64,000 nucleotides of DNA from Druceiella hillmani (Eukaryota; Arthropoda; Insecta; Lepidoptera; Hepialidae): positions 8,316,501 to 8,380,500 of the forward strand of contig JAYKKI010000006.1 in NCBI GenBank assembly GCA_039881145.1, in the 5' to 3' direction. Positions 16,934-53,395 of the stretch are shown in pieces. The position numbers and the translations under genes are program-made. The stretch's first letter is position 1. Each line of letters starts with the position of its first letter. The notes under the pieces are model-generated. The model did not search any database. It saw only the letters and a list, made by a program, of their open reading frames with translations, and was not told the origin of the DNA.

Positions 16934-17153
16934 TAAATTTATAGTAAATCTGTAAAACCGAGCTAGAACTGTGGTGCAAGTAGCAGTGAGAGCGATTAAG
17001 CTGGAAATGAATTAGAGGTCCAGAACGGAAGCACCGCGAACAATAAATTGCACTGGTGCTTGCAGCAGCTGGTTGATTTCTTTAAAATTAGTCTGTCTTG
17101 TTCATCTGAAACCAATGAAATAACACTATAATCAGTAAATTTTGAAAAATAAG

Positions 17154-17212
<59 letters not shown>

Positions 17213-20200
17213 TATATGTAATATATGTACATATATTACATTTACGAAAAGTAATAAATCGGAAGAGGAGGAAAGAAATTGTTTTTAATAAAGTTATTTC
17301 TGAATATATTTACATGAAATTTATAAGTGGGTTTAGTTATTGTATAAAATTCGAAGAAATACGGTAGACGAAAATACTTTAAGAATTACCATAAATATAA
17401 AAAATGTGTATTTAACAAATTAAATAGACACGTATAAAACTCATATCAAACAATACTTACCAAAATAACACGTGGCTAAAAGTTTGTTTGTTGTCCTTAT
17501 GTTCTGAATTCTTTCAGTTTGAATACCATCGGCGTAGAAGCATATGACGAAATTAACCGTTATATGGAAACATCATAATAAAAATAAAATTATGAATGCT
17601 TCGTTCAGTGTGTCCTGTGAAAAGATGTACAATTGCTATGTTTCTCCTAAAAAAATTCATTCAGTGTGCTTTAGAACATGGTGAATAACATTTCATTGCA
17701 CATCGTGATTTTTAAGCAAGAGGAGTTCGAGGCTTTTACCCTGTTGCATGCTGTTAAATATTTCATTGTACGTCTGAGATATTTTTCACCCAACACATGA
17801 GAATATCAACCATTGAAACATTTTTAAATGGTAAATTATTATTTTCAATTTAAGGCCAACTTCCTTTCCATTAAAGTATTTTAAATAGTTTTCTGATATT
17901 AACGTCTTAAACGTTAGGTTTTGAAATTTGTTGAGATTTTTTCTTTGATAATAATATGTATTACATATTAATCTATAGGTTTGGTCACGAGTGGTATCAT
18001 GACCGCACGATACATTTGTTATGTAGAGGTTCAAGTTTAAAAACTGTACGTTTTGGTTTAATTATCGCATGCCACTCAATACATTGTTGTGATAATAGAG
18101 AAAGTATGTTAAAAATCCGTCATTGGCCTGTGAACTTGTCAAGTTAATTATAAAAGTCACGATATTGCATGGAAATTTTGGTGTAATGTTTTTCGCGCAC
18201 AAAATGGTTTAATTTTAAATAACGCAAAAATGTAAACGAATTATGTCGTGAAAGATTAATTGTGTCATATCTGCTTCCACAGTTATAAAAAAAGAAATAA
18301 TTCACTTAGAAGAGTTAAATTCATAAAAAATATTTAAAAAACCGTTTAAAATAAATGAAACTCTTTTGAAAAACTGTGTTTTCTCCTTAAGTAACCGCCA
18401 CTGAAATTAAAAACATAACGATTATTTTTCTATATGCAATAATTTTAGCGCAATACCGTTCCTGAAAATTTTATTATATTCCTTTACTAAACATACTTAT
18501 CATCATAATAAAAATCATAAAAAATATTTAAGTAGGTAAAGATAACATAATTAACTAAATGACTAATATGTCAAAGGCACCACAGTTTGACAATGATTTT
18601 TATAATGAATTAGATTTTAATTTTAGTACTTCTGTGTACCTTCCATACTAGCCAAATCTTTATCATATGTATGTTGTAGTAGAGGAAATTGACAAACGAT
18701 GAGAGATAAAATTCCTTCTAAAGCAGAGGTAATCAGATGGCGCAGTATAGGATGAATAATGTGGATGCAACAGTAGAGCCCACCGTAACTATTATATAAT
18801 TCTGAGAGATGAGAAAGAGTAAATAAAAATGTAAAAAGAAGTGTTCGTGGTACGAGTGCCCAATTTTTATAATTATATGACAATGATAACAGAGGTACTA
18901 TTAAATTTCAAAACGTTATTGGCGTATTAAATCAAAGCCTGGTTTGGAAATACTTAACAATTTTTGTGGAACAAGCTTTTGAATATGAACTCAAATGACA
19001 GTGTCCAGAATAATTAGAGGCACCAATCTTCGTTTTGCGATTTAGGTGATCAGATACTATGTACTATAGTAAATAAAGAATACATAAAACTATTTTTGGC
19101 TATATCTAAATTATATTATTAAACTGCCTGAATACTGAAAACGGAAACTAGTTTTACTGTTTCAGTAAATTAATACCAAGAAAAGAATCAGACGGTGAAT
19201 ACTAAACTTCGAGCAGAAAACGGTGAGCATGTTATTGTCCTTATAAACATCGACAGCTGACAAGTGCTATAATTAATTGGTGTAGCGGACATTTTAATAT
19301 AAAAATTTTAATAATAAATAAAGAACCAAGATAATACCTGTTTCCACGCAAATCTGAGTAAATTATTGATCGCCGTCAATGTATAGTGAAGATAAAACAA
19401 TACATGAAACTAGCTGAAAAGTTTAATAACAATTAACAAAACCCTAGAAAAAATATCACAAGCAGAAAGACACTGACTTGATCCCTTCAACTCCATTTAA
19501 AACTTATACTATATTATGATTTTTTTGAATTATTCCAGCCTCCTTTATTCATAATGCTTAAGTTATAATACCATTTAGATTGTATACTAAAAGAAATTAA
19601 GTTATTAATGAATTACCTGGACATTGAATGCCGAAATTAACATATCACACACTTCCAATAACTTGTAGCAAGCTTGATACATATCCGAAATTCTGATAAT
19701 ATTTTCCGCAGCGTCATCAGCACTATTTATATCAAACACGACATTGTTCATCATGTTAATACTAATAACATACTCTCCATGTGCGCCATTATTGCTTTCT
19801 AGTCGTTTCAAATGATCAATTAAAAAGGAAAAACGTGCTTTTATTGCTCTAACTGTATAAAATTAAACATTTCTGCGGTAACTATGGTAAAATCTTGTAT
19901 ATTATGTATATTTTCGATGATATTGGAACCCGTAAATAGATAAATAAGTTCAATAATTTGTATGGTAATATGAAATATAAATATAATTATCACCATTACA
20001 AAACTAATTATTTTCATGTATATGTATGCTTCAGACGTGGAGACGAGTTTAAGCTTCGTGCCGATTTGAATTATTTTTTCACACATTGTGGGAACAAATT
20101 TTGAGATAAAAAATTTGTCCATTTTAAAGTAATAACTACAGAAAAAAATTCATTAAACTTGTTACCCCAACTACAATGTCCCAATAAAAATAACGAATAT

Positions 20201-20315
20201 GAAGTGAATAGATTTGGGCGAATGTACAAAACAAAACCACTAGAAAAGTACACGTTTTATAATAGCGCTTATATTGATTAAATTGTAGTAAATAATCTCT
20301 TTTTGAACGAGATGC
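16934..20315 (-). pseudogene. Gustatory receptor pseudogene 1 (left copy)
   Basis: This locus has the same exon layout as the intact Gr at 32229-36468. The exon 1 relic is 19617-20315, with [14 protein letters not shown] and YKLLEVCDML aligning to the intact protein and the same donor context CAG|GTAATT. Exon 2 is 17461-17614, exactly 154 bp, with acceptor TCACAG and donor TTTG|GTAAGTA. Exon 3 is 16934-17105, with acceptor TTTCAG. Exon 1 needs at least three frame changes, including a net 4-base loss where the intact copy reads FIQLVRAV. Exon 2 has TGA where the intact copy has the TGG tryptophan (residue 265). Exon 3 has a one-base deletion after DEQDRLILKK and an in-frame TAA after SVLDL. 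The C-terminal signature has decayed from [10 protein letters not shown] to ATCTTVLARF. No functional product is expected. Splice sites survive although the reading frame does not. Confidence 0.85.
17157..17239. repeat. (TA)n microsatellite in intron 2 of Gr pseudogene 1
   Basis: TA repeat followed by the palindromic run TACATATATGTAATATATGT, just upstream (in gene orientation) of the exon 3 relic. Confidence 0.95.
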
Positions 20316-21052: not shown

Positions 21053-21060
21053 CAAATATA

Positions 21061-23758: not shown

Positions 23759-24884
23759 ATCCGCTAATTTTTTTAACAAATTCTGGAACTATTTTCCATA
23801 AATTTGCATCCATACTTTTGGTCAAAATTATATGCAAAACCTTATGCAGGCACGCACAAATCACACAAAACAAATAGACTCAATAATAATATGATCTTAC
23901 TTCATACCTATTACCGATTGGTGTAATATTACAGAGATACCGTCATAAACTCAAGCTTATTTTGGGGAAATGTAAAGGTATAATAATAAAAATAATAATG
24001 ATAATATTAAACAACACGCTGTGACGTCACGTTTGTACACGGATGGGAAGGAGCGCGGAGCGACGGGAATGTACGCCGTGCGATTTCTACTCGTGTTTAA
24101 CATTTTTTTTCACCATGTGCTCAATTTATTCCATCAACTCATGGTTTGATATAACTTTCTTCAGAAAACCTCAAAAGCTGATTGACTTTTTTTGCAACCA
24201 AATCTAGAATCTTTTTTTTCAACTAAATCGCTCATAAATATTTTTAATGTTTAAGAAGCTTTTTGGCCGAAATATACCAGTTGCTGAAAATTTCAATGCA
24301 AATCACAATTTGCGCTGCTTCTTTATAAACCACAATTTCCTCTTTAATAATTTTTTTGTGAATAGCAAGAGTGTCGTCGCCATGGTATGTTGGGGATTAT
24401 TTATAAGACATAGGGGAAATACGTACAAAATGACATATATGTACAAAATGACATAGGCTGGTTATTTTGAATTTGGCCGACTTTAACACAAAACTGACAG
24501 TGACACCAAGCGGCTATAACGGCAGTCCATAATCTGTCCAATTTTGAACGCATTCATTTCATTCGTGTTGGTGTCATGGCCGATAATAAGTATTCACACG
24601 TTACGAGTTCTATTCACACTGTCAAATTGTTTGTTCAAATGGTAAGTTTTTTGCTATTGTATGTATTTATCTAGCATTTGTTTTATTCCTCAACACTTAT
24701 CTTCAAATTAAATAGTTTATTTTTAGAAAAAGAACTCTTTGTATCATTATTTACATATTTTATTGTTTTAAAACGCTCTACAGACAAAACGATGTGCATA
24801 TATAACGGACCAAATGGCATAGGTATGTAATTTTTTCCATAGCTTTTGTGTTATATGTAGGTATGTATTTTTTTAGATACCAAA

Positions 24885-26012
24885 ATGCCACGCAATTGGC
24901 TGATCGGCAATCTTGGAGAACGGACTCAGTAAAGAAAGCCATCGAGGCAGTTTGAGATAAAAAAATCAGCTGGTTATTGGCACTGGTTTTAGGCACTAAT
25001 AAAACTTTGTAGTCAAATTCAAAAGACCTTGGTTGTTGGAAAGCTATCGTTCCATCTGATGTGGAAAGGCAATTAATTGAGCATATAAAATTCCTTGAAA
25101 GTCGTTTGTTCCGATTGCCACGAGCATCAGTACAAGAATTAGCTTTTAAGATGGCTGATAAAAATGGTTTTTCTTATAAATTTAACATCTAAAGGCAAAA
25201 GTCCTGCCTTTTTTAAGACTGATTAGATGGATTTCTAAGACGTAATATAAATATACCTTTTTGCCAACCAGAAGCCACTTCAGCAGCTCGCGCTCAAGCT
25301 TTAAATTGGTCGCAAGTTCAAAAGTTTTATCAGTTGTTAAAGTTTTATCAGTTGGAAGTTTGCTAGAATCTGTTGGCTATAGACCGCACCGTATTTATAA
25401 TGCTGATGAATCTGGGCTATCTACAGTACAAAAACCTGAAAAGATTTTAGCTATCACGAGAAGGAAACAAGTCGGAGTTATACCTAGTGCGGAGCATGGA
25501 GCAAACACCACTGTTGTTTGCTGTGTTAATGCTGTTGGAACTTTCGTCCCGCCGATGATGACATTTCCTAGAAAAAATATGAAAAACGAACTTATAGATG
25601 AAGCTCCTCCTGGCACTTTAGGTGTAGCTCAACAAATTAGGCTAGATGACCTCCGAAATATTTATGAAATGGATAAAGCATTTCCAAAGTTTTCTAAAAG
25701 CAAGCATTGACGATAAAATAATTCTAATTTTCTATGGACATGCAAGTAATGAAGGCCTTTAAAGCTTTGAAATATGCAAAAGAAAACGGGATTAATATTA
25801 CATATCTGCCTCCACATTGCACTCATCACATGCAATCTCTTGACGTCTCCTTTTTTGGGCCTTTGAAGACCTACTATAACCAAGAAATTGCTAAATGGCT
25901 GAAGTCACATCCTGGACGTGTTGTTACGCATCTTCAGATCGCTGGCTTGTTCAATGAAGCATATGGCAAGGCAGCTACTAAGAATTTACAAGCACTGGCA
26001 TTTGGCCCCTGA
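24885..26012 (+). pseudogene. pogo-type DDE transposase, multiply frameshifted
   Basis: The order of conserved blocks is that of Tigger/jerky-like transposases. N-terminal helix-turn-helix: MPRN then, shifted, DRQSWRTDSVKKAIEAV followed by a stop. Second DNA-binding segment: DVERQLIEHIKFLESRLFRL and PEATSAARAQALNWSQVQ. Catalytic DDE_1 domain from about 25321: RIYNADESGLSTV (first Asp), IILIFYGHASN at ~25720 and SLDVSFFGPLK at ~25840 (third Asp). Family members read LDGHASH at the second position. Here Asp is replaced by Tyr (FYGHAS), so a catalytic residue is lost in addition to the frameshift right after HASN and several stops. A short duplication of the AAAGTTTTATCAGTTG unit (~25318-25352) disrupts the centre. 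The product is dead. In life it would cut and paste the element at TA sites. Confidence 0.8.
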
Positions 26013-26112
26013 ACCCTGACATATTTTTGGATTATATGTACGAGCCCGCTGAACCACGAACATACCGCTGGAAGACAACTGGAATGAACAGCGTCCTCAG
26101 CGTGCAACGGTA

Positions 26113-26830
26113 ATGAGCTCCGTCGAATCTGAACAGGTTTTGACACGACCTTCACAACAAGTAGATGATTCAGTTCCTGTGACAAATACGTCTCAGGTCG
26201 CTGCGGCTGCTCTGTTAGCTCTTGTTCAAACGCGGTCCCATGATACGATATTTGAAGAAAATAATGCAGCCGAAATAATAGCACTTACCGACCCACAAGC
26301 TGAAAATTCATCTCAGGTTCCAACAACAAACTCTGGTTTAGAAGTTGTTTTACCAATGCCTTCCATCGTCTTTTGCTCTTGCTGTTACTATTGAGGTGCT
26401 TTCTCTGGTGCCAAAAGGATGTTGTATTAGTGGCCAAGAGAAACGCAAACCAAAAATTGGACAGAGCTCGTTGGTGTTGCCTTGTACTCCTAATATGTTG
26501 GAAATAAAATATAAAAATAAGTCCAAAGCTCCCCCAACAAAGAAAAAACGCAAAGCCACCAAAAAATTATATGTAGAAAATGATGAAGAAGAAGATTTTC
26601 CTAATATTTCTCATGACGATGAAGAGGACTGTGCTTGCATTTACTGTAACGACCTTTATTCAAGATCTAAGCCCGGAGAAGACTGGTTGCGGTGCTTACA
26701 TGTTTGCTTTGGGCTCATGCTTGTTGCGCTAATATTCCAAGAAGAAATAAACGTTTCATTTGCAAATTATGCCAATAAATTTGAAGCTATTGCATGTTTG
26801 TCACTTTGTCCATTAGCAATATGTTACTTT
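26113..26830 (+). pseudogene. C-terminal region of the pogo-type transposase with PHD-like zinc finger
   Basis: This follows the DDE domain in the order expected for insect jerky/Tigger-like proteins. A Ser/Thr-rich linker (MSSVESEQVLTRPSQQ...) leads to a basic and acidic patch (PPTKKKRKATKKLY, then a run of Glu/Asp). Next comes a Cys-rich module starting CACIYCNDLYSRSKPGEDWL. After one frame change the module continues LWAHACCANIPRRNKRFICK with LCQ and a stop. The CxxC...WAHxxC...CxxC spacing fits the PHD-like finger found at the C-terminus of this transposase type. At least two frameshifts split the region. The basic patch may have been a nuclear localisation signal. Confidence 0.7.
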
Positions 26831-29642
26831 GCCCGAAGCATATGGACAAAATGGATTATGATTGATCACAGTTAAATATTATTTTCTGTAGATTTTTTGC
26901 TAAAAATGTTTATTAGTTTCGATAATTTAAGAACCAAAGATGAATGATGTAAACTACGGATATGCTGTGGACTACCAATAAAAAGTTATAATGCAAACAT
27001 AAAACTATGTGTCATTTTGTACATATTTACCTTACGATTTCTGACGGTACGGCACACCGCGGGAATCCGAATTTGATTCTCGAGCGCTGGGCTATTGTTC
27101 TAATTGGTTGCAAGAGGTTAGTCTCGTACATGTATGAATTGTGTACATAAAACTACATAAGTAAATTAATGAACACTATACTGCAATAGTAGTGGATGTT
27201 ACAAGTGTGCTGCCAGTTTACCTAACATTTAACGGTAGTAGGTTTTTGAGACAAGGAAATATATTATTTTTGCAAATCATAAATTAGAACGTATTTCAGA
27301 AAAAAAGAAAACATAATGTTTTTTGTTAAAAGTAATTTTAATTTTGAATTTGAGAAAATAGGACAATGATACACTAAGTAAAAAATACTTCAAAATATGA
27401 AACAACCAAAAATTAATATGAGAAAAAATATGAAGTTAGAGTTAACATGTAATCAATTGTATACAGATATAATGGAATAAAATTGATAACTTTAATGTCA
27501 TTTACTCTGTGCGTAGTTTAAAAAGATACTAATATCAATATAAATCGATATAAATGCGAATTACGACAAGTAATAATAATTTCTTTGCTTAAGAATACAA
27601 TATTCCGGCTTATTTTACAAGTTAATAAGCATTAGAGTAAATACATGTGCTCTAACTCATCATAGCCCTAATTTCTTAATCATAACTACGCAATAAATAT
27701 ATCCTACAATCTGGCCGTTCACTCATTCTACCGCTCTCTATTCTTTTTATCCTAGACCCTTCTCATGTTCCCTCTTGCCTATTAGATTGATTGTTGTTTC
27801 TAATTATCACATTTATTAAATGACTTTGTACTTTTATTTTTCTTCATTGTGACCACAAACTTTTCTATTTAACTGCGCTACTAACTAATTGCGTGAAAAA
27901 ACGTTCGCTCTCGTATAAACATTCACCCAACATACTTGACCTCCGTTGAAGTTAATTAATAAAATAAATTAATAAAATTAAGAAGTGTGATACCTTCGTC
28001 GCTCCGGTCGTGTATCAGTTTTGTTTAAAATAAACTCGAAAAACGTATGTATTAACGAACCTAAGATTCTCCACATATTTATATTAATACAGCTTACGTT
28101 AATTTAAGTAAGTGGCTTAAATGAATTAAAGTTACCAGTTATGGATATATAAAACATAAGTAAAACATCGTTTAATTAGATTTTGTCATTATTAAATGAA
28201 GACTAAGGATGACGATAGATCGTTAATATTTCATTACTATTTTGACCAAGAAAAATATTTTCATAAACACTACCCAAATTGAAGATCCAAAATGTTACAA
28301 AATATTACAAATAAGAGATACGACATGTCTTTTTTTCGTCATTGTTACCCACTCATGGGAGAGATCTAATTTTGTATTATGCGTGTTTTATAATAATCTT
28401 GTAAACTTCCGTCGCTCCATTTTCATATCCTAAAGAAAAAAAAAAATTATTACTCAACGGTTAAGTGTAAAATTTTGCTTAACGTACATCAGTTATGTAT
28501 AAATATTTGCTTAAAATCTTATTATATTCATTAACTAATTGAAAATACAGACCAAATGAAGGTTTGTAACATACATATTTTTGTATTTTTTCATGATTAA
28601 AGGTATCCAATACCCTTTCTCTTAATCAGGCATGTTATACAACTTTCTAAAGAATATACGGAAACGAAATACGGAACGTATAAATTTGTTGTAAGAATGT
28701 TTAAAATATTTTTTCCTGTGTGTGGCGAAGTTCGTGTCAGGTGGTTTAGAAATTTAATTGTAGATCCTTAATCGGCGCAACAAAATAGCTCGCTGTTTAT
28801 ATTCGAGCTTTTACCATGAATTGATTACCGGATTTAATTTCGAACTAGGCAAGCTTAGCATTTACAAGATCATAGACCGTTTTAATTCTGAGCGTATCTC
28901 GTAAAAATATGAATTATACCATTGGTTAAAACTTCATATATACTCAAATTAACATAGATTGCAATGGCAAATTTACATAATAGCAGTGATAACACAGACA
29001 CTTCAGCAAGCCATCAACGTAATCTGTGTTGACCAGAAAAAGAGAACCTATGTAGTTATCGATGCCACAGAATGGACAGATACGTACCTGAAAACCAACA
29101 ATGTAATGGCACATTTTAGTGAAAGATATCGAAATATATTATTAGTTATGCCATTTTAAACAATTCTATCGTGTTTTCATAGTCAATATTTTTTACCAGT
29201 ATGTAGAAATATTAGTAAAGTTAATACAATTTTGCCCCATGTCTCTTCACTGTCCTGTTTTTTCAAGCTATTTGTTTATTGCATGCGTCAAGCAAAGCAT
29301 TAAGCAAGTCTTCTTTCTTTCAAGATATTAAGATTATTTTATTTATTGCCAATCCGTTCGTAGTGATCGAATAACTTAAGCAGTTCATATATTAATTAAA
29401 TATGTAAAAAACAAAATCGAACAAAAATTAGACATTAAATGAACACACGGCGTCCGACATTAAAATAAATCACATGAACAATTAAGAGTCTAACACACTA
29501 ACCATCAAGCAAATAGTTCCTACATATTTAAGTACGCTTAAAAATATTTTAAAATACATTAATAATTACATTTATATATTTTAATTATTTCTATTTGGAT
29601 ATACGTTAATAATTACACGTAATATGTTTAATATTGTTAATT

Positions 29643-32228: not shown

Positions 32229-34349
32229 TTAATTCAATGTAAAGTTGTAAAATTGAGCGAGTACTATGGTGTACGTAGCAATAACAGCGAAAAAACTGAA
32301 AATGAAATTATAGTTCAGAACGAAAGCGCCGCAAACTGTAAATTGTACCGGGTTTCCCAGAAGTTGGTTTATTTTATTCAACAGCATTCTCTCTTGTTCA
32401 TCTGAAATAGTTTAAAAATTACTATGAACATTAAAATTGGCAAAAATATTGAAATAATTAGAGTTGGCGAATGTTCTTATTACCTTAAAAACTAGCGTGA
32501 AAAAAGTTATGACGCACGCCTGCACATATGTGTTTGTGTGTATATATATGTATGTATATTTCTGTAGGTAATAACATATTTTTGCATAACCTCGTGTTAG
32601 TACGATAAAAAAGAAAAGATGAAAATATGTAGGAAAATAAAACAATTTTCGACATGAATAAAAACAGAAAAAATTTGAAACAAAAAGAATTTAAACCTAT
32701 TGAACAATTGAATGTCACAAGACGTAAAAAGGCACGTATGCAAAAAAAAACGAACAAGACGTAAAGCTAGCAGAATGGCACGTCGCAACGTGCTATCAAA
32801 ATTTTATATTTATTATTATTATTAAATTTTATTATTACGCCATTAGATATTTCATATCCAAAGAAGTGTTTGGCAAGAAAGAATTACGAGGCGATATGAG
32901 AGGTCGAAATGTAGAAAAAAGTATTCAAAGAGATGTACTGAAAGAAATATTATTTTGTGTACATTACAGATGTCTAAAATTAATTTCTAATTTTAAGGTA
33001 CTTAACAAATTACTGTGTAAATTCCATAAGTATCAACAAAATAACAGTATTTTAACGTAACCGAACTATATGTCCATTTTGAAAACCATCAAATGAGGCA
33101 AATAGCACTACACTTAGTAAATGCATTCTACATTGGGCGTTTCTTTCCCAGCTCTAACGAATATAACGTTGATATTTCGTAGACTTTTATTTACAGTGAA
33201 AGCTGTGACCAAGATATCATGTAATATGAAAATATTTAAATTGATTAAACAAACAGAAAGACAATATAAATTATTCTTGGTTCTTAATAAGATTCCTAAT
33301 TCATAATCTTCGCCCTCATCTTTAGATAGTTGTTTGAGTACTATCGCTGGGAAAATTCTGTAATGGCACAAATTTTTTAGTGAATATACTTTGCTGGCAT
33401 ATTTTTGAGACAGCAGTCATCACCAGTTGCCATTTCTTCAAGATCAATATCTAGTTTTGCTGAAGATTATTAATTTTACTTTAATCAAACCTGGATGCTA
33501 GTTATTGAAATTAGCAGAGATTGTTTGACAGATAAATGTTAAGGTGTGGAAAACTTATTGTTTTAACATTCAAGATATTTACTAGAGCAAATATTTTGTC
33601 ATATTATACACACATACATAAAGAAACTGGTGCGCTATAGCAAGTATTGGAGAGTATATGACTTCATGAAGAAAATTTATTTAAAACGTATTATCTGGGA
33701 AAGGAAAAGCAGTCACTTTGGTAAAAGTAAGTCTTGAAGTATCATAACATGAAATATATAACTAGTGGTGCTTGATTGTAGGAAAATCCAAGATATTAAA
33801 TACTTACCAAAATAACATGTCGCCGTAAGTTTGTTTGTAGTCCTTATAGCTATAATTCTATTAGTTTCAATACCACCAGCGAAGACGCATATGACACAGA
33901 GGATTGTCACGTAGAAACACCACAATAAAATGAAATTTATGAATCTAGGGTTCATTTCATCCTGTAAAAATTTATACTGTTGTTATACTTCACCTTAAAA
34001 GCTTGATTTAGTACATTTTATAAGAATATCAATAACGTTTTATTGTACACCCTGATGTCGTTGTTGTTCGAGGTTTTCAAAATTTGATATGGCGCAAATA
34101 TTTGATTACACATCTGTGAGAGTTTTTTAATTCAATAATTTTTTTCAGATTTAAATATTTTTCTCTTCCATTAAATTATGATAAATAAATTCTCAAAATA
34201 CCGTTCGAAAGGAATTAGGATTTTTATCTTTGTTGTTAATTGTTTTTAAATTCCAAAACTAAATGTTATCTATCCTGGATGACAGCATGGCATTAATTTC
34301 GTGAAAAGTATGTAGTTAATTCCGTATAAATATGTCACTATATAATCAC

Positions 34350-34487: not shown

Positions 34488-36468
34488 TATGTATATTATC
34501 AGCAACTACTTTAAATTAGGGAGTAATATAAGATTCTAAACTAAATTAATATTATGTGACACGTACAGTAATAACAATTTTGACTATTACACAGATAAAT
34601 GTGTAAAATATTAAGAAACCAAAAAAATTTTAACAAAAGGTGAAGGTATTAAAGACAAGTAAACAGAATATTGTAAACATCTTCGAAATATTCCAGCATT
34701 CACGAATACTATCAAAATGGAACAATTTTACAAACGCTCCTTGCTATCATATCGGACGAAGTTAAAATTACCATAAAACAAATGAAAAAAACAATTTCTC
34801 GATTTTCAGATGAAATACCAGCGGAATTCTGAAAACATCTAGGTGATCCAATAGTGCATGAATTGCATAACAAACGAATTCATGGTTTCACGATAACCAA
34901 CTCATGGTGAAACAGGCACCGGATACCATTTGACAGAGGAAAAGGAGATATAACAAAGTATAGGAATTATAGAGCTAATAAAATGATATCAAAACTTTCT
35001 GAGTGGATGAGGATCCAAAAAAATAGATTGAAACAAATTATAATTCTTACTGCTAACCAGAGGAACGCACTCAAATTCAAATTCAAACCGTTTTAATAAG
35101 GCTCTAAAAATTAACAACAAAACTTGGGCATAATTTTCACAGATTTGACAAAGACATTTGATTATCTCACCAGGGATCTGACCTAGGAATCACTTATACA
35201 GCAACAAGTACTGGAATGTTTTATCAGACTCATTCAAAGTATGTACAAAACTGTCACCGCCCAAATTTTAGATCCTGTATGCACAAGTTAAACGTCAGAA
35301 ATTGAAGTTGGAATGTAAGAAGGTTCTACAATCAGTTGAATGCTATTTAATACACGTGTGAACTATCTACCTAGACTCTAACAGAAATCATTGCTTCGTA
35401 AATAATATTGAACTCGTAAATAACATTTTAGTAAAACAATTTAAATAGTACCAGATTCCGTGAAAATCCGAGAAGATGGTTGACTGCTGTTAAAGTGTAC
35501 ACTAATGTTGCGGCGACAAAATAAAACAGCTGAAAAATAAATTAGACGGTTAAACAATTTTGAAACAAATGTAAGAAGCGCAATAATATTTATACAATCT
35601 CTCCTATTCGCTTGGAATTGTATAGTATGTTGTCGATTTTATAAAATGATTTAGATATTAAATATTAAAAATTCTTAAAATTTTAATGAAAGAAATTATG
35701 TTATTAAATAATTACCTGGACGCTAAATGCTGTATTTAACAACTCACACACTTCTAGTAACTTGTAATGAGTATTATATAAATCCAAAATGTTTATATTA
35801 TCTTCAACAATATCATCGGTTATATTAAGTACGACATTCGTCAACGTATGGACAAAAATTACATTATTTCGGTTTGCGTCATTATTTCTTTCCAATCGTT
35901 TCAATTCATCAATTAAAAGAGAAAACCGCAGATTTACTGCTCTGACCAATTGTATGAAGTTGCACATTTCGATGACAGATGTAAAGAAAATTTGCAAATT
36001 ATGTATTTGGTCGATGATATCGAATTTTAAAGATAGATAAATGTGGTCAATAATTTGCACGACGATGTAAAACACGAACAAGAATATCACCATAATAAAA
36101 CTAATTCTTTTCATATTTCGGTAAACTTCAATTTTATCGATGCGTTTGAGCTTCACATCAATTTTATAAATTCTTCTGTACATACTGGTGAACAAATTCT
36201 GAGATAAAAAATTCAACCATATTAAATCAACGACTATAATTAGTAATTCTATTAAGCCCATTACTATAAAGACAATATCCAAGGAACTACCACGAAGATA
36301 AAAATAATAGATTTGGGCAAATATACAAAACGGAACATATAAAACAATGCATGTCTTATAGTGATGTTCAAATTTATTCAATCGTAGCAGACAATCACGT
36401 TTTACAAAGCAAAATGCGTGACAAATCGTGAGGGGATTAAGACTACTTTTTATAGAATGATCTGCCAT
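32229..36468 (-). CDS. Gustatory receptor (Gr, 7tm_7 family), intact three-exon gene
   Basis: Complement of three exons: 35716-36468 (251 codons, donor CAG|GTAATT), 33808-33961 (acceptor TTTACAG, donor TTTG|GTAAGTA) and 32229-32401 (acceptor ATTTCAG). Splicing is phase 0, then phase 1, giving 359 residues and TAA with no internal stop. The start ATG sits in a CAACAATGG context and is followed by MADHSIK. Hydrophobic segments lie near residues 40-58, 61-88, 122-146, 160-178, 258-281 and 334-353. Residues 229-251 match the Gr pattern YxxHYxLLEV...FxxQ. The C-terminal exon ends with TYTIVLAQF at 345-353, fitting the family's TYhhhhhQF signature. Insect Grs are ligand-gated cation channels in the dendrites of taste neurons. 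The ligand cannot be told from sequence. The usual length is 350-450, so 359 is normal. Two decayed paralogues flank it, and it is the only member here with a full reading frame. Expression is not shown. Confidence 0.85.
34348..34485. repeat. (TA)n microsatellite in intron 1 of the intact Gr
   Basis: About 135 bases of TA repeat with a few interruptions, between exon 2 and the LINE fossil. The IYIY frame across it is not a gene. Confidence 0.96.
34755..35390 (+). mobile_element. LINE reverse transcriptase fossil (RTE/CR1-like)
   Basis: Plus-strand translation gives [19 protein letters not shown], the thumbprint upstream of RT block A in non-LTR retrotransposons (usually KSPGxDGIPAEF). Further on, [18 protein letters not shown] matches RT block A (FxDxxKAFDxVxR) with its Asp kept. 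[16 protein letters not shown], then GM(stop)EGSTIS(stop)MLFN, match block B (GVRQGSxLSPxLFN). Several stops and frame changes show long decay. The fragment sits in intron 1 of the intact Gr, antisense to it. Assignment to RTE over CR1/Jockey is tentative. Confidence 0.65.
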
Positions 36469-36492: not shown

Positions 36493-38499
36493 TTCCCTAC
36501 TAAAGAAATGAAAAGCTGAACTACAATTATCGCCCTTAAAAACAGACACACACTTATCACCAATATTAATTTTTTTAACCCTGATTTGTCGTTCTAACTT
36601 GGTACCTAATTTTACTATTTGGGTTACTTTATATCTACTTTATAGCTACTTTATGTATACTTTATAGCTACTTTATATCAAGCCATACTGGCTTGATCTA
36701 AAGAAATTTATAAAAGAAAATAAAAACGATCATTTCATAGTAGTCGTCCATTTACGAAAGCATAAATCTGCTAAGCACTACTAGAGTTTTGTATTTACTC
36801 AAATATATTCATATTCTTGTCGATTTGGTACAGCAAGTACTGCCACCGCGGGTGGCTTTTCGACATTGAACCAAGAGTTAAACAGCTTTCAGTGTGCCCA
36901 AAGGGCATCATCATATCACGTTGTTCCATTTTGAGTATTGAACTATATGAATGTCATTTGACGGAAAAAAAAACCGATTATACTCTTAATTTAGAGTCTT
37001 TCTTAAGTTTTTTTTAAGTGGATTCTTTTTATAATAATTAAACGCTTGAATGTAAACATCTCTCCTCGAATAAAATATATGATAAATTATTTTCATCTAA
37101 TATTTTCGAAAAGAACTAAACGAAATTCTTGCTACATAAATTTACAAATATTTAATATGCAAAATGTAAGGGTATACGTATATCTCTTAATTTAATTTCT
37201 ATATGTCTTATTTTTTTATATTTTATTTCTCATGTAATAATTTAATACGTTACATCGACTTTGAAGGGGCTTTCACGAAGAATATTAAAATTTGTCGTAT
37301 GTTTTTTTTTATGTTTGTCGTATGTTTAATTTTAAATTGTATATATGAAAAATGTGCAAAAATAGGGTATTCCCCTTTTTTCCTAAATTACTGAGTAAGC
37401 AATCATAAAAAAGACAGGGCTGCTAATTTTTTAATTAGAACCTTTCAAAAAATTATGGCGTTTATGCTATATTTTATACTGTTTGAAATGAGCACTGTGT
37501 TTTTACGCCTGCCGTGGTTATAGTGGCAATATATTTATGTGAAAAATTAATATTTATAAATAGTTTAATGAAATTACTATGCACCTTTAAATGTTTATAA
37601 GTCCCTAAATGTGTACAGAAAATTTGCGGGTTCTACACAAGACTTCGTCCTTATGAACTCTCTTGAATCTATTTTCTTTGCAATCTGGCATCTGCATCGC
37701 TTAAGAAATCTTTACGGTCACTAATTTTTTAAGATCAGATTAATATAGAAGTTACCATTAAAGTGATTTAAAATAATTAACGTCTTTTAATTAATGGGTA
37801 AATATATATTATATATATAGATAATAGATAATAGATAAATTAATTAATGGGTAAATATATATTATTATGTAGATAATAGATAAATTAAATACACAACGCT
37901 ACTAAAAATGTCATCTTTGATTGGAAAAATAAAATATATTTTTAAACAAATAAAATAAAAAAAAATGTAATACTAGCAACTAAAGTACGCCTCATATTAA
38001 CATCGTCTGACGCAAGTAAAAATTAAAATGTAGGTAAAAGGTAATTTAAAACAGTTACATAGCTTATTGAATAACAAACATTATCTTATAACGAGAATTG
38101 TCAATGAACGGGATTTCGACTTTATAAATAATGTTTAAATTGGAAATCTACCAAGTTTATTTCGGGTCGAGTAGACTCAAATACAACAATAGCAGGGTTT
38201 AATTATAATACTCTTATGAAAGGCCTTGGAATCGTGTTTGTATTGTGTAAAGTCTCAATGCCATTATTGATTTTTTGATCCAAATATATGAGACATAACA
38301 AAAATATAAATAAACATGTTGAGTAAAATTAGCACTCAGACGTTGAGGGTTCCGTACATATTTAGGCACATTGTGTAAACATTTAAGAATTCATTTCTGT
38401 AAATAATTATAGTGTTTCTATGAAAATTTAATGATAATTGTTCATATAAAATTTAAAAAAAAATATTTCAATTTCATCATCAATATACATATAATATCA
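36493..38499. other. Intergenic upstream of the intact Gr
   Basis: It contains a small tandem repeat of CTACTTTATAG/TATACTTTATAG at 36633-36680 and the duplication at 37789. No gene is recognised. Confidence 0.5.
37789..37886. repeat. Short tandem duplication (~52 bp unit)
   Basis: TTAATTAATGGGTAAATATA followed by TATTAT and GATAATAGATAAATTA occurs twice in a row (about 37789 and 37841). Confidence 0.75.
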
Positions 38500-39690: not shown

Positions 39691-39759
<69 letters not shown>

Positions 39760-39760
39760 G
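39690..39760. repeat. (TA)n microsatellite
   Basis: TA repeat immediately following the end of the repeat element at 38500-39690, at a position where insect repeats often carry simple-sequence tails. Confidence 0.93.
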
Positions 39761-42700
39761 CTAATTCACTTTTCACAGTCTTAAATACGTCTTAAACACC
39801 TAAAATACTATGGAATATAGGATCATCGCTCTTGTCTTAAGTCAAACTATGAGTAATCTAGCAGCAAGGTTTTTCTTCATAATTTTGACTTTTCAGTTTC
39901 ATGTACAAAAGAAAAACATTTTCAGCAATATCTCAAAACCAGCCCTCATATATTACTGGTAAAATATATTTTGTCTCTAACAATTTACCTCAATTAATTA
40001 ATAATCCACACGATTGAAGGAATTAAAAAAATAGAGTATTTAACATCTTGGCCTGAATGTTTAAGAGTGATCATCATTGAATTGTACGCCGGTTAGTATA
40101 GTTAATCACATTTTAAGCATTTACCATAAAGGATTCCTGGAAGAAACGGTTGTGACAGAGAATCACGCAGATAGGTGATTACTTACGTGTGTGGGGGAAG
40201 CCTTGAGCGAGTTAATATTATGTGAAGTAGTTTTGCCAAGTAATCAGTTTTATTAAACTCTATATTTGGATTTGTACTTGTGTACGCATAGAAAATGAGT
40301 CCATTTATTATTCAACTTAAACGTGTATGGCTAAACACTATAGGCTAAACATCAATTATGAGGAACAGGGCAAAAGACGTTTATCGTGCGCTTATTTATT
40401 TATCTGGGCACGTTGTTGTTTTACGCATGTTATAATCTTAGCTTTATTTTCACTATATGGATATTGAAGAGTTGCCTCTAGATAAATCGTGCAATTGCCA
40501 TTTATGTGATTATTTTACCATATTTTAATAAAATAGTGGCTTCTCTTTTAGACATAATAAATTTCTCTCTAATTAATAAATCTTGGAACTATTAATAAAA
40601 CTGTCTTTTTTGTAATAATTATTCCACATGTCTTCCAACATATTATACATGGGTAATTGCTGTAGTAACAGTAAACAAGTTTGTTTCTACATGAGAGGCA
40701 CGGCGAATTATTTAATTTAATTTTTCATTTAAAAGTCTAATCGAGCGGCGTACGTAATTTTATCGATAAGTAACCGGAAATTTTCGGTCCTAACCTTTTT
40801 TTTGTTGTTTTTGGCTGTTTGACTGTTAATTTTAACATTTCAAGTTACTTGTAAATATTTGCTTCAAACTGATATTGCATATTTTTACTACCAGAATAAT
40901 TTTGACGATCTTTTAAGCAATACATGGTTATCTATAACCACATGTTGCTTAAAAACACTCGTAATATAGAAAATTGTTTATATAATTAGAGGAGAAATTT
41001 TAACTAAATTTTAGAGACGTGCATGAGTTAATCTTCGAACAAAATGCCTTCAAAACTTGTTTATTTGCTGCCTTCAACATGGTTATTTTCTTTTATTAGA
41101 AATGTAACAGATTGCATATGATAGCTACGGTCGCGCACGACCTTTGGGGGAGCTTTGCGTCGACTAAAGAAAGTTACTGATATGTACGTAAGATGAAATT
41201 AGTTGCCATTTTTTCATGTTTCCGTGATAAACCTGAAAAACAAACCGTTTACAATACTGACTTCAAGAATACCTTTCATTTCATTTTTGTACAGTTTTTC
41301 ATCTATGCACGAGATATTACAGATTATCAACACGTAACGATAAAGAGACAAATAATAACGGTTAATTTTGTCTATTTATTGCTCACAACACTTTGCAGTT
41401 TATTTGTCTTATCATCCTTGATTTTCTCCGTCCCTTGCGTAATTGTCAAATAAATGGTAAAAACTTTGTCTGGTCAGTATGTAGTCCACTACAATTTATA
41501 TAATTTTTATGCAACATAGATCCACATATCTGCCTGAATTTCACAGGTCTACAAAATTTGAGTTCTTCGATTAATAAATTAAATTTATGCATCAATAAAC
41601 TATGTAACAGAGAAACAATTAATGTGACAATACTTAAAAAATAATTACCAAATATTGGTCTAAAAATATGAAGTAGACAAATATATTATCAAACTATAAG
41701 TTTAAACAAATGAATATAAACCAAAAATATTATACCCATGTGTTAATTAAATTTGTCTCTTCTCGATTTAAAAAAAAAAACAAAATCAGACTTAATTTTA
41801 CACTCTTCACCGCATAGCCAATGTTGCCAAAGCTATTGAATAGAGCTAGCTGAGCAAAACAAAAGTAGAGTGTGAGCAGTTTTGTTTAATTGGTTAACAA
41901 TTATTAATTAATTAATTTATAAAATGTAAGGCTAGGTTCTACTCGTAGTCGGCTAATATTATCTATATTCAAAGAGGAGCATAAAACTTGCTTATATTAT
42001 TGCCAAGCACATTTGTTTTATATAAATATTGTTGGTGCGTATATTATTTTTTCAAATTATTATGAAAACATATAATAAAAAATGTATCTAAACTTTACTA
42101 GGTGAAGCTATATCCAGCGTATACCTGAAATTAATTAGACCGCTGGTGATCAAAGTGTTTGCCTTAATTGTTAAAGTCAAGTACTTCTGTCAGTAGTCGA
42201 ATTTTAAACAAAAGTTGTGCTAAAATACTGAAGTTTAAAAAAATTGGAATGTGAAAACAATGTATCATTTTTTTATAATAAATTGCACTCTTATCACCTA
42301 CTCTGCGATAGTCGATTTAAAATAGTGTCCTTAAGTAAGTAAATCTCAAAACTCTAACTTATCATACATGCCACAAAACTCTGTATATTTTCTGCCTATA
42401 TACGTTCTCTTCATTTATCCATGGGGGTAGTCACTTTCCGTAACGGACAATTTAGTGTTAATCATTTGGCAAACTACTTCTTTCAATGTTTTCAAAAATT
42501 CTTTGTTTGCTTCAACATCATCTCCACACTTTTAGTACGTTTATATATAATCCCATCCTCACTATTCTATCATCACACCTTTTTCTATTTGATTTGAAGT
42601 TAAGGTCACAGTTGATCGTGAAAATTTGACTAAATGTAAAAAAAATGTTCTGTCGAGTACATTTTTACATTCGTTTCGAAATAATTTATAGCCAAAAAGA

Positions 42701-47115: not shown

Positions 47116-47809
47116 AATAATATTTTTTGGGTTATTGGAGAGCATTAGAGGGAGGAAATTATAAATGCTGAAAATTAATTTTCTTTCCCTTTAGGAAAAA
47201 CTGGATTTTAAAAAATCATTTCAAATTAATCTATATCTACCAAATTTCATCAGTGAAAGTTTCATGCAAATTGATTTAGTTTTTTTGCAGTGCTTAAACA
47301 AACAGATAAATAGGTAAATAAAGTACGGACATGCAAAAAAACGTCTCTTACTAAATATTCGAAGAGGGCAAAATGTAACCTAAAGGTTAATTTAAACTCT
47401 TCGCAATATTCCAGTGAGAGTTTTATTCAAATATGCGTTGCAATTTTTGCGTGATATTCGAACTAATGCATATACAGACCGTAATTTTGGAAAAATGCAT
47501 TTTGTATATACATATTTAGCATAGCTGAAAATGGAAAAATACTGATAGACAAAATGAATTATTGCAATCCAAATTTGTATAGAAATATGAATTAACAATA
47601 ATTATTAACATCGTTGATTTAGAAGTTTACGAATATTGTTGAATAGGTCATTTTTAAAATTATACTGTTAGACTTATTAATGCGGCAGATTGTAATATTT
47701 TGACATACTCATTCATCAAAATAAACACGGTTCAAGCAAAAATTGATTCAAACATTTGTAGGTATCGTACTTCAATTTTTATGTTTTGTGTGGAGGGTGA
47801 AATATCGAA

Positions 47810-48060
47810 AGTAATGAATCTTCTCTGTGAAACGCTATTATTGTGCAACGGTAGCGTAATGAACTAGAACAGAACACGCGTAACGTGAATTAACACTTCT
47901 CTCCCATGAGTACTGGTTGTAATAAGTTGTTATACTTTGGCTGCAAATAGTTAGTAGAAAGTATGTAATTCAAAAATGTTAAGAACCAAACGCCTGATAG
48001 AAAACTGAGGATCTCACATTCAGCCAACGATGAAAAATAGTAAAGCGACGTCTTACACGA
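47810..48060. repeat. Homologous 3' flank of Gr pseudogene 3
   Basis: This is the counterpart of 15480-15700 at nearly the same distance from the Gr exon 3 relic. The shared blocks are GTGCAACGG, GAACTAGAACAGAA, CTTCTCTCC and GAGTACTGG. The sequence is non-coding, and no conserved element beyond common descent is evident. Confidence 0.5.
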
Positions 48061-48926
48061 TTGTTTAATTTTTAATTCAATATTTTTGTGTTTTTTTCAA
48101 ACTACTTTCCATGGTCTATTTCTAAAAAAATAATTTATGCTCGTTCGTTTTTATTTATTTACTTTCACAGACGCAAGGCAAAATATATAGTTGGTTTTGA
48201 CTCTAGAGCAATCCCCCTGAGCCAACAAACAATAAATTTTATAAGAATATGAGGCGTAGGCATAATTAAAATGGGCCATAACTTTTTTTCTGTTGACGAA
48301 TTGTCCAATAACGGCAATAATAAAGACCAAATTATCTGGAAAGCTTAATTGAAATAAAACGTTTTTTTTCTCAAAAGAGTTGTTACATTCAGTTTCATAC
48401 TAAATATGAATTTTGTACGTGTAATATTATTATGAGGATAGAAAAATTTTGAAAACTTGAAAACAATGAATTACATAAATTTAATTCATACTCAGACATT
48501 ACATTTTATCTTACGTACATAGTATACAAGACAGAAAATTCTTAAAAAGATTTACATAATAAATTTAGCTAGGTTTAAACGTGTTTTATATAAGCACAGA
48601 ATTTTGTAGGTATGTATATGTGAATAACGTGTATTGGTGAGTCCATGTTTCGCACATTCTGTGTCTTTAATGTTGAGTGCGATTTTAATCTACAATTATT
48701 TTGTCGTAATGCTTACTAACTAGTGATTTTTCTGTCAATAGTAAGGGAGATGTCAATGTTTATGTTGCAGTTCGTATTTATTTTGAAACGAATTTCCTAA
48801 CCCGGACTACATAGAGCATACGACATTGAAGACGTCGATTACTCGACCAGGCCCAAAATTTTTCGCACGTTGGAACTAACTATGTTCTTGTTTTTTTTAC
48901 CCTTATTTATTTATATTCGACCCCGG

Positions 48927-48985
48927 AGAAAAATCATGATTTCTTTTCTGCACAAAAATGGCAGAAAAGAAATCATGATTTTTCT
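48927..48985. repeat. Perfect 25 bp inverted repeat, 9-base loop
   Basis: The left arm (48927-48951, starting AGAAAAATCATGATTTC) and right arm (48961-48985) are exact reverse complements around ACAAAAATG. Each arm also holds the palindrome AATCATGATT. It lies about 210 bases past the exon 3 relic of Gr pseudogene 3. The exactness implies recent origin or template-switch repair. Confidence 0.9.
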
Positions 48986-49196
48986 ATTTCAAATGTTATT
49001 ACCTATTAAAATCACTTTAATTATTTTTAACATCTTACTTAAAATTCATTCAGCTAACGGATTTTGCCGAGTCAATTTCAATAGAATAATTATTTACCAT
49101 ATTTGTTTCAATGTTTGCTAAATTGCTGAAAATAGTATTATAACGTCTATTTCAATATTAAGTAGCTGATATTTGAGTTGGTGGTTTCTAGGAAAT

Positions 49197-52100
49197 TTAA
49201 TTTATTTTACCGTTGTAAAATTTAATGAATTCTGTGGCGTATGTAGAAGCAACAACGATCAAACGGAAAGTGAAGTTGAGCGCCCGAACGAAAGTGCCTC
49301 GCACTGTAAAAGTCTTGATAATATATAAAACTGTCTTGATAATATATAATAAACGAAAAATTATTATGGTAAAAAATAAGCGTAAAAATGCAAAGAAATA
49401 AACAAAAAGTTTATTGCACGAGTTATATAATTTTACTTAATAAAATTAATGGAATGAAAAGAAAATTAAAAACAAATAATAATATAACATTTTATTAATT
49501 ATATATGTATGTTTTTCCTACATATACAAATATATGTGTGTATTAATAACTACGCGTTGACTTGACAACGGAAAAATTATTACTGAAAGCAAAGTAAGTA
49601 AAATAAATATTTTCATTATTTGAAATAAAACACCGAGAATGACAAAAACTTCAATCTGCTGAACAAGTAGTGAGAAAAGGTAAATATAGAAGTATCAAAT
49701 TACAAATGTTTAAGACATTGTAATTCCCGGCGAAACATACAGACACATCGGAATAATTATTGTCTAAAGTAAAGTTACGGGTATCCTAAACTTTCTAGGA
49801 TTATTGTTACTCAAACCAGATTGGTATAAAAACAATAGAATTTATTCTTGCCCACCAAGGTCAACAGCACTATACATTCTAAATATAAAGTCAAAATTAG
49901 GTGTTCCTATCCCGGTTGCGATGAGAGCTATGTTGAAAAATTTTACTTATAGTGGTAACGTACTTATCTCACCAGGATATCACATAATAATAAAATTCGT
50001 ACTGGTAAAATAGACTAAATTAGGATATATATTGGTAGACTCGGCATAGTACGTATTCTCCATTACTATCGTCATAATTGGTTCTTAACGGTAACCTCCT
50101 CAAAGTCCCTTGGTTCACAATCTTTTCTTTAAAGTGACTCATTCAAATGGTATTGCTGGGGATATGAACCAATCTAAAGTATGCAATTGTACAAATCTGT
50201 GTTTATACTGTCGTTCGAATTCAAGTGTTCAGCAATTCAGTACTATTATGACAAGATTTTTTTCATATACTTTATGTAGCTTATTCTAGAGTAAAATAAT
50301 CCAGTAGTCATTTAATTACAACTTTAAGGGTATTGACTACCACAAATATGTTATCACGTTGATTCACAAAAAATTGGCGCATTAGAGCAAGTATTAAAGT
50401 TTGTGAGACTTGACGACTAAAATTTATTTAAAACATCTTATCCCCAATTTAATAGAGAAGAAGGTTAGGGCGAAGATGTTTTAAAATATATAAATATTAT
50501 TGATCAGAGCAGTGTTGCTATGTTAACATAAAATACATATGTAAATGAATACCAGACATATCGGAATGGATCCCCGACCACTTAACGAAACTTTTTAATG
50601 GAACTCATAAATATATATCAATGAACTTTTTAACGCAACTCAATAGATGGAAAAATCTACGTTTACTATCGGGTTATTCAAGTTTAGTAAAGGTTTATCA
50701 CTATGTAACTGGCAGAAAAATTACGATCATAAATATCATTAATGCACTACGTTATTTTCTTAATTTCGTTTTTCTGTGCTGCACTCTGCTGTGTCTGTTA
50801 TGATATCTTGTTTGAGATTGATGTGTATGTAAAACTTTGCCCCCGAACGGAATCTTTAATATTTCAGCCTCCTTAAATATATGTATATAAGATGAACGAA
50901 GGCTGGTTATTAAATTTTTAACATATATTAAGAAGAGAACTGTTTATGCAACATTTAAATAAGCATATGTAAAACTCGTGTCATGGAATATTTGCCGAAA
51001 TTACGTTTGCCAAAGTTTGCTTGTAGTCCTTGAAAGTAATACTTCTTTCAGTTTTACCACTCTCAGAGAAAAAGCATGCGTTACGGATGATCATTATGCT
51101 GAAACACAATAGTGAAATAAAATTTATTAATGTAACGTTTAATGTATGCTGTAAAATGTTAAACCATTCTTGTATTTCCTTTAAAAAACCCTATGTGGTA
51201 TATTTTATAATAGTCTAAATTATTTTTCATTTCCTGTCGTGATATTTTAGGCATTAGAATTACGAGATTTCCACACTCAACATAAATTTCGAAGAATTGT
51301 TTCAAGATTTGTAACGAAATTTTTATGTTACATGTGATTGCTTAGAACTCTGAGAAGTGCAAAGTAAGTGAAGTGCAGATAAAGTAATGTTGGTGGAATA
51401 GTGTATTTTTAATAGTATAACTCTGCGTAACTAATAATATTTTATGAGCATTCTTTACCATAAGAAAAATATTTGATCTCGCTAATTATTTAGTTTATTA
51501 GACTCGACTCGAATCGACTAGTGGACTAGCGATTGAATTGCTAATATTGTTTCCATACGCCATAGATTTCCCAGGAGAAAATTAATAATATCCTTCATAT
51601 CCCACCGCCAGCCTAGTATTACCTTCCCGGCACCAAATTCAGGTTTTGGCTTTTGAAATTTCGGTTTGCCTGATTCCATTATTGGTGTTTCCACGTTTAA
51701 TAAATATATGTATGTCACCTTCTTTTTAACAGCAGGTATTAATTGCTTCTGTCAATAAAAATAACGTTTGAATTTTTTCAAAATTTTTAACGTATATTTA
51801 CGCAAAAAGTGCTTGACGGCATAATTCATTTAAGGCCTTAGCGCTAAATATCACAAGGAATAAGCATAAGCATACCTTAGCTTATTTCTAAATGACAGTA
51901 AACAATCCTGGAATTTTCGGCGATCTTTGAAATGTTATCAAATAATTTCAAAACAAGCACCATAATGGTCCGTAGTAGTGAAGAACTAATAATATATTAG
52001 TACCGATATGTTACTCCGCATTGAAATAGTTCAACAGATGAAAGAATATATTACCTTAAAAATTGAAATATGTTAGGTCATAGTTTTCAGTAACTGAAAT

Positions 52101-53395
52101 GAATTATAAATATATTAATCGATATAAACTCGACTGTATTAATTGTTTTCTGAATATAAATAATCAGGAAACGAGTAAGACAGTTGATTTTAGCACGACT
52201 TGATCCAATTTGAATTACTTTCAACAGAGCAAAATCCGATGCAATGAAAATGGCTGTAATATTAAAAATATAGAAAACAGGAAAAAAATTCTGAACGAAT
52301 TTTATTCAATTATAAATGGGGCCATATTAACCGGATTGGCTGGTTAAGCTTGGCGGTAATCTATTGTACTATGGTTACATACATGGCGGAAACATTATCA
52401 GAAACTTAAAAGAAAAAGTACAATATTTAAACGAAAGGACAAACAATTGGAAGAAAAGAAACTATCACAAAGCAAAAATGCCCGTGGTACGTAATTCTAA
52501 TAATTACATGGCAATGGTAACAGCGATTATAATAAGATTCGAACGATTGTCAGGGTATTTCTTCAACATGTCTCGGTTTGCACAGCATAAGTCTTACAAA
52601 CCACACTGTTGGCGTGGCATATACCTATAAATGTGAACTGCAATAAGGTGAAAAATTAAAGTTATAAGACATAGATTTACATAGCCAAATACTACAATAG
52701 AGAATACGGTTGGAATACAAACATTTAATTTTTAACCTTCTCCAAAACAAACATGGGGACTGTCTTAATAATAGAAAAAAAAGAAAGGGTGTCTTATTTC
52801 CTAATACCGGAAAAAATGTATGTGTGTGTGTGTGTGTGTGTGTTTATCTAATTCTGGTTATTTTAATTCACCAGTTGAAAGAGAAAAACAACGTTTTGGC
52901 ACTCTAATTGTATGAAATTAAATATTTCTGCAATCAATCTATTATCTAGAATACAAGTTTACCCCGAGTAAGCTTGTATTGTAGGTATTGTGTCAATGAT
53001 TTTGAATCTCAAAAGGTTAACAAACATTTACGAAAATTTCCATGACGATACGAAATGTAATTATGAGTGTCATTAGCATAAAACTTATTATTCTCACGTT
53101 GATGTAAAGTTCAAGTTTTTTTAATGAATATGAACTTCATGTAACTGTTAGTAGTAATTCTGTAAATTTTGTTGAACAAATTATAAGATACGAAATTCGT
53201 TAAGGTTATAGAAATGACTACAGTAAATAAAGTCATAGAATCCACTACCGTAACTGTTATATCCAAAGAACTATCACGTAAATAAAGAGAGTTGGTTGGA
53301 GTGAATGTAAAAAATAAAACATGTAGGAAATCATACGTTTTATAATTGTATCCACATTTATTCAATCCTACTAAACAATCTTTTGTGAAGCAAGA
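49197..53395 (-). pseudogene. Gustatory receptor pseudogene 3 (right copy, truncated)
   Basis: Exon 1 relic is about 52850-53395. It opens SCFTKDCLVGLNK and continues NYKTYDF..SLYLRDSSLDIT, aligning residue by residue with the intact Gr ([25 protein letters not shown]). It then frameshifts near KLELYINVRIISF and ends with FNFIQLE just before a (TG)n tract at 52818-52843. The part of exon 1 matching intact residues ~193-251 is missing. Exon 2 is 50996-51149, again 154 bp and open (LINFISLLCF), but its donor reads TTTCG|GCAAATA instead of GTAAGTA. Exon 3 is 49197-49312 and keeps TFTVRGTFVRALNFTF and STYATEFIKF. Its first third is lost at a short duplication (49313-49350). Intron 2 and the 3' flank also match the intact copy. 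No functional product is expected. Confidence 0.82.
52818..52843. repeat. (TG)n microsatellite at the truncation of Gr pseudogene 3 exon 1
   Basis: Twelve to thirteen TG units. Gr homology stops within a few bases of it, so it marks or caused the break. Confidence 0.93.

Follow-up and report, generated by a model that had tools for sequence, protein, structure and literature searches.

A tandem cluster of an insect-type Gr chemoreceptor gene in Druceiella hillmani, with one open copy between two pseudogenes

Three loci on the minus strand of a 64,000-nucleotide stretch of the Druceiella hillmani genome (contig JAYKKI010000006.1; called the window here), at about 20.3-16.9, 36.5-32.2 and 53.4-49.2 kb, represent three copies of a single 7tm_7 (Gr-type) chemoreceptor gene; we refer to them as copy 1, copy 2 (the middle copy) and copy 3. 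Their arrangement raises the question of how the three copies arose, and of when and how the outer two were lost. The initial annotation had read the locus as a tandem Gr cluster in birth-and-death turnover, with one live gene between two pseudogenes, and this reading is borne out by the homology of the three loci, the 7tm_7 match, the lesions in the outer copies and the constraint on the middle branch.

The middle gene and its family

In the middle copy, four exons together give an open frame of 385 codons and a stop; every intron is GT-AG, the intron phases run 0, 0, 1, and AATAAA signals start about 100 bp past the stop codon.

35716..36468, minus strand: middle copy exon 1, 251 codons, phase 0 at its end, donor GTAATT
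35452..35529, minus strand: middle copy exon 2, 26 codons (78 nt), in phase 0 at both ends
33808..33961, minus strand: middle copy exon 3, 154 nt
32229..32401, minus strand: middle copy exon 4, 173 nt including the stop, encoding TYTIVLAQF

A spliced receptor of 359 amino acids had been proposed before; that model is the present one minus the 78-nt exon 2, whose omission leaves the frame open because both its ends are in phase 0, and it has to be replaced by a model of 385 amino acids and four exons. Copy 1 retains exon 2 together with its splice sites, and with this exon included the 7tm_7 score goes up from 50.1 to 68.8, a gain of 18.7 bits. The residues it encodes fall inside the match to Gr43a (residues 228-380) with two single-residue gaps, while the 359-residue model loses a hydrophobic segment at 243-261. 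The exon is thus likely to be part of the middle gene and to carry part of a membrane-spanning segment, and we infer that splicing in vivo joins all four exons into the message for a 385-residue receptor. That a short phase-0 exon is so easily missed while the frame stays open is a caution for gene models.

The 385-residue protein matches Pfam PF08395 (7tm_7) at 68.8 bits, against a cut-off of 26.6, over residues 41-379, and no other Pfam family is listed for it at E up to 1; with exon 1 by itself there is no Pfam match. The family motif TYhhhhhQF is present in full as TYTIVLAQF at residues 371-379, and the long first exon followed by short C-terminal exons is likewise Gr-like. A Kyte-Doolittle scan finds eight candidate transmembrane segments, of which 203-221 is the weakest, where seven are expected for the family; the same scan of the 359-residue model gives seven, the segment at 243-261 being the one lost. 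The nearest solved structure by sequence is Gr43a (8jm9; E 3.9e-4), which we take to be the Drosophila fructose receptor and to which the C-terminal 153 amino acids of the middle receptor can be aligned. The profile match and the motif together support the assignment of the middle gene to the insect-type Gr (7tm_7) chemoreceptors, and by family membership its product should be a subunit of a ligand-gated cation channel for a tastant, predicted to be tetrameric and expressed in taste neurons.

One feature departs from the family pattern. The last Gr intron is typically placed before TYhhhhhQF (PMC2680840), whereas the last intron of the middle gene is in phase 1 inside codon 329, with the TY following about 42 codons further on at 371. 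The usual last intron is absent from exon 4 (32229-32401) in all three copies, through which the alignment is continuous, so it was probably already lacking in their ancestor. Loss of this intron is rare (PMC2667405). Intronless and single-exon Gr lineages are nevertheless on record (PMC6175461, PMC9339325), so its absence is no argument against Gr membership; it is a lineage feature that could help to place this receptor clade.

A protein search for relatives of the 385 amino acids retained none of 2347 candidates at E 1e-3, and pattern scans with exon 1 gave 24 matches in genome contigs and 6 in viral contigs, none of them confirmed. The collections searched hold mainly microbes and viruses, so the lack of relatives in them says little about novelty.

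Homology of the three loci and the extent of the duplicated unit

The self-comparison proposed in the initial annotation puts the homology of the three loci far beyond chance. With simple repeats masked, and at E up to 0.05 for matches more than 5 kb apart, 23 plus-strand HSPs were found: 12 lie on the gene diagonals, four in colinear flanks, five belong to one repeat pair 51 kb apart and two are unrelated. The minus-strand control gave five HSPs at any distance, two of them more than 5 kb apart. The gene-diagonal HSPs take in introns, as had been claimed for intron sequence common to the copies. Profiles of exons 1, 3 and 4 each matched all three loci at E < 8e-84 throughout, the best two loci per profile reaching E 2.4e-91 to 2.6e-205; the exon-2 profile matched copies 1 and 2 only (E 1.3e-22 and 5.9e-26).

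16937..20315, minus strand: copy 1, pseudogene, homologous from near codon 20 through to its end
49200..53402, minus strand: copy 3, pseudogene with frameshifting indels (insertions of single bases, and deletions)
15491..15537: copy 1 3' flank, colinear with copy 3 3' flank 47805-47851, E 1.3e-5
16468..16543: copy 1 3' flank, colinear with middle copy 3' flank 31723-31799, E 0.007
38016..38198: middle copy 5' flank, colinear with copy 3 5' flank 55209-55377, two pieces, E 0.002 and 0.007

Only the middle locus has an open frame, as first described; both others carry frameshifts and stops. Copy 1 has deletions of 1, 1, 4, 2 and 1 nt, a 6-nt insertion and two in-register stops past codon 21 (codons 291 and 360), and these five frameshifts and two stops are distributed over all four exons. 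Its three introns are present with GT and AG intact in each. No start region is recognisable in copy 1 by comparison of the middle copy's N-terminal codons with the DNA upstream, where 175 of 200 shuffles scored as well. In copy 3, two in-register stops lie past codon 21 (codons 145 and 191), a CA microsatellite stands in place of the end of exon 1, the exon-2 profile gives no match, the 5' part of exon 4 is absent together with its acceptor, and the exon-3 donor is GC. A weak match to the N-terminal codons of the middle copy at 53800-53831, 400 bp upstream of copy 3, is possibly the detached start of copy 3 exon 1; as a claimed start (53831-53800) it was dropped, since 3 of 200 shuffles reach its score.

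This erosion limits what the loci share. Common intron positions, described for all three, hold for copies 1 and 2, while copy 3 is without exon 2, the donor of exon 1 and the acceptor of exon 4. The 154-nt exon keeps its exact length in copies 1 and 2 and measures 153 nt by aligned boundaries in copy 3. The C-terminal TYxxxxxQF, described for all three, is complete in the middle copy only: copy 1 reads TCTTVLARF and copy 3 TYATEFIKF. The introns of processed pseudogenes are absent, whereas copy 1 has three and copy 3 retains intron DNA; the copies are therefore not retrocopies.

Beyond the genes, common 3' flanks are supported by weak colinear matches of copy 1 with copy 3 and with the middle copy. 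Flank matches reach 0.4-1.4 kb downstream and 1.5-2.0 kb upstream, each weak (E 1e-5 to 0.007) and on the expected diagonals, the farthest pairing copies 1 and 3 at 1.4 kb downstream of exon 4, and the middle copy and copy 3 at 1.5-2.0 kb upstream of exon 1. Measured on copy 3 (47805-55377), the duplicated unit is thus at least about 7.6 kb long, a length that joins matches from two different pairs. Large-unit tandem duplication, as first suggested, stands to this extent and not for a unit of 16-17 kb: the masked self-comparison gave no further spacer match at a 16-17 kb offset. The regular spacing of 16-17 kb on which that suggestion was built could not be upheld either, because two intervals cannot establish regularity, and the offsets vary by exon from 15.3 to 17.2 kb (16.1 and 17.0 by exon 1, 16.3 and 17.2 by exon 3, 15.3 and 17.0 by exon 4).

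A period of this length predicts a further copy at about 0.3-4 kb, and no exon profile matched there at E up to 10 (1-16.7 kb covered). In the same 1-16.7 kb, tblastn with the middle copy gave four matches at chance level (E 2.0 to 8.4). The tblastn match at 1141-1088 lies at the predicted place but has E 6.8, and we do not count it as a copy. An array of 16-17 kb units is therefore not what is found, with homology over about 7.6 kb only and no copy at the next period; an old unit of that size may have been eroded past recognition. A spacer comparison with lax scoring was unusable, its reversed-sequence controls going down to E 9e-21 from AT-rich DNA (window GC 0.27-0.35 per 4 kb).

Selection and the timing of the outer deaths

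For divergence and stop counts the first 21 codons were left out, copies 1 and 3 being unalignable there; this region holds one further in-register stop in copy 1 and four in copy 3, all uncounted. Over the remaining codons, coding identity is 68.8% between copies 1 and 2, 64.8% between 2 and 3 and 63.4% between 1 and 3. In 366 noncoding columns aligned in all three copies the identities are 0.574, 0.563 and 0.560 for the same pairs, and their near-equality supports a roughly simultaneous split. No pair is clearly closest by noncoding distance: the closest pair was 1-2 in 1074 of 2000 bootstraps, 2-3 in 527 and 1-3 in 399.

The three branches were compared with codon models in which any codon containing a gap or reading as a stop counted as missing data. 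In a three-branch model with noncoding equilibrium frequencies and the other branches fixed at 1, the middle branch has an omega of 0.51 (p=0.012). With all omegas free the values are 0.58 for the middle copy (p=0.061), 0.63 for copy 1 (p=0.054) and 2.0 for copy 3 (p=0.012); an F3x4 model, whose log-likelihood is 44 below that of the noncoding-equilibrium model, gives 0.50 (p=0.021), 0.60 (p=0.038) and 2.84 (p=0.0015). These values suggest some constraint on the middle branch, that is, purifying selection on the middle copy. The middle copy also has no lesions against seven in copy 1, the probability of none being 0.007 to 0.0009 for 5 to 7 expected, a figure that presumes similar branch lengths.

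The dN/dS comparison foreseen in the initial annotation thus came out in part as predicted: the middle copy is constrained (omega 0.51, p=0.012; p=0.061 with all omegas free), but both others do not fit strict neutrality cleanly. An omega of 1 for copies 1 and 3 jointly is rejected at p=0.0076, and in 60 simulations with omega 1 for both dead copies the observed likelihood ratio was reached in one, an omega of copy 1 as low as observed in two, and one of copy 3 as high in one. We do not read the omega above 1 of copy 3 as positive selection; model misfit or real non-neutrality remains, and no simple story here accounts for the value.

The number of stops bears on when the outer copies died. 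Under lifelong neutrality, and with the codons of the middle copy as the starting point, 8.8 stops are expected in copy 1 and 9.1 in copy 3, against two observed in each (P 0.0071 and 0.0056; combined P 9e-5); with shorter branches the expectations are 6.7 and 7.0 (P 0.037 and 0.029). From this shortage it seems that both outer copies were coding over much of the time since they separated, and died late. Late deaths are also favoured by a coding identity between copies 1 and 3 (527/831) that is higher than their noncoding identity (205/366; p=0.017). Between these two copies, indel density does not differ clearly, at 8/783 in coding and 11/588 in noncoding DNA (Fisher p=0.24; one-sided Poisson 0.045), and identity by codon position is flat at 0.647, 0.621 and 0.634.

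A lesion common to both outer copies favours a different timing.

19847..19858, minus strand: site of the 4-bp deletion in copy 1, the same as in copy 3
52902..52913, minus strand: site of the 4-bp deletion in copy 3, the same as in copy 1

The middle copy retains these 4 bp at 35940-35955, and because its frame is continuous through the site, the loss is most simply taken as derived. With the observed deletion lengths, the probability of such a coincidence is 0.0014. The common deletion favours one early death, after which a copy carrying the frameshift would have been duplicated into two pseudogenes, with a rearrangement placing the live copy between them. The flat codon-position pattern points the same way, as does copy 1, whose omega does not differ significantly from 1 at the 5% level under the model of better fit. 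We nonetheless regard this course as unlikely, since it has to accommodate the shortage of stops in both copies, the live copy located between two pseudogenes, and noncoding distances in which copies 1 and 3 are not the closest pair; in the F3x4 model an omega of 1 for copy 1 is also rejected. The stop count and the common frameshift could be reconciled by recurrence of the deletion, by short-tract conversion, or by an early death after which few stops happened to accumulate. Gene conversion effects are described as negligible for Drosophila chemosensory families in PMC4122928, which does not favour conversion of the 4-bp lesion. It is very doubtful that two paralogues that are not neighbours and had long been functional both acquired this frameshift late, by conversion of a null lesion or recurrence at a fragile site, while the live copy between them was skipped. 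If they did, receptor copies would die in a partly contagious or site-biased way and not independently. The common frameshift set against the stop shortage makes a small test case of whether lesions spread among receptor pseudogenes or each dies by itself.

We thus consider it probable that the cluster arose by tandem duplication with a near-simultaneous split, followed by late, separate deaths of the outer copies and constraint on the middle one. One insect-type Gr gene would have been multiplied into a short tandem array by duplication of units of at least about 7.6 kb; the three copies would have split at about one time and long remained coding; the outer two would later have lost function, separately as we infer, and the middle copy would have been kept under purifying selection. 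The common 4-bp deletion, the lack of a codon-position pattern in the differences of copies 1 and 3, their coding and noncoding indel densities without a clear difference, the omega above 1 of copy 3 and the p of 0.061 for the middle branch with all omegas free speak against this account. That the outer copies are separate gene-sized insertions into unrelated DNA, so that their spacing is uninformative, would suit the lack of intergenic matches past the near flanks, the variable offsets over just two intervals and the transposon remnant in one of these, but the colinear noncoding matches in introns and (more weakly) in flanks, the common orientation and the kept introns make it distinctly unlikely. 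Scarcely credible, finally, is that the outer loci are working genes with other exon joins, or assembly errors: copy 1 does have GT and AG at all its introns and few lesions for its age, yet its five frameshifts and two stops span four exons and its N-terminus is unrecognisable, and in copy 3 exon 2 is missing and exons 1 and 4 are incomplete.

Known Gr clusters and further elements in the window

The three-locus cluster is an ordinary case of known Gr family turnover, and mostly a worked example of it. Gr clusters with intact, broken and fragmentary copies are on record (PMC2667405 and PMC3011837). The papers PMC2667405, PMC6175461 and PMC9339325 describe adjoining paralogues, a mix of intact and broken copies, and fragments in the duplicated sugar-receptor complex of D. 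grimshawi and among cockroach and Spodoptera Grs; the present cluster differs from these in details only, its copies being old (63-69% coding identity) and its pseudogenes sharing a frameshift. The DpGr47b duplicate of D. pseudoobscura is likewise a dead, truncated Gr copy in a family under turnover, although it is described as recent (PMC3011837), whereas the copies here are strongly diverged.

A further piece of the family lies between copy 1 and the middle copy.

24255..24339, plus strand: inverted piece with a broken frame, probably a relic of exon 4 from a related Gr

It matches the exon-4 profile at E 6e-4 and 13.3 bits, the best match in each of 20 shuffled windows being at most 4.6 bits, and none of 200 shuffles scored as high in a Smith-Waterman comparison on a pre-chosen 220 bp; it is thus a probable fourth piece. 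A Pfam scan of the 136 ORF pieces of at least 62 amino acids, from which low-entropy pieces had been removed, gave two families at E 0.01, DDE_1 and FN3_7, with one piece each. The same scan missed exon 1 of the live gene, so weak further Gr relics may exist. Rfam and tRNA scans of the window gave nothing.

The DDE_1 piece (ORF 25728-26009; 24.1 bits, cut-off 22) belongs to a DNA transposon remnant of about 2.6 kb at 24411-27034, presumably pogo/Tigger-like, which lies in one of the intervals between copies and ends in short inverted repeats (24411-24439 and 27006-27034; 86% alike, E 0.043). A noncoding direct repeat, about 65% alike, occurs at 5351-6112 and 56394-57166, 51 kb or about three spacings apart. 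We do not take it as a further array unit: no exon profile matches where it would place a copy, it has no long ORF, and three partial copies adjoin it at 57173-57723. Two direct repeats of about 575 bp at 9978-10549 and 12583-13158 are 96% identical and start 2.6 kb apart; shorter repeats (about 65-73% alike) adjoin them, and TG...CA ends were not seen. The stretch 38400-39540 is strongly C+T-rich, with tandem repeats of 12, 70 and 108 bp, and the GC skew is -0.30 in the bin 36001-40000.
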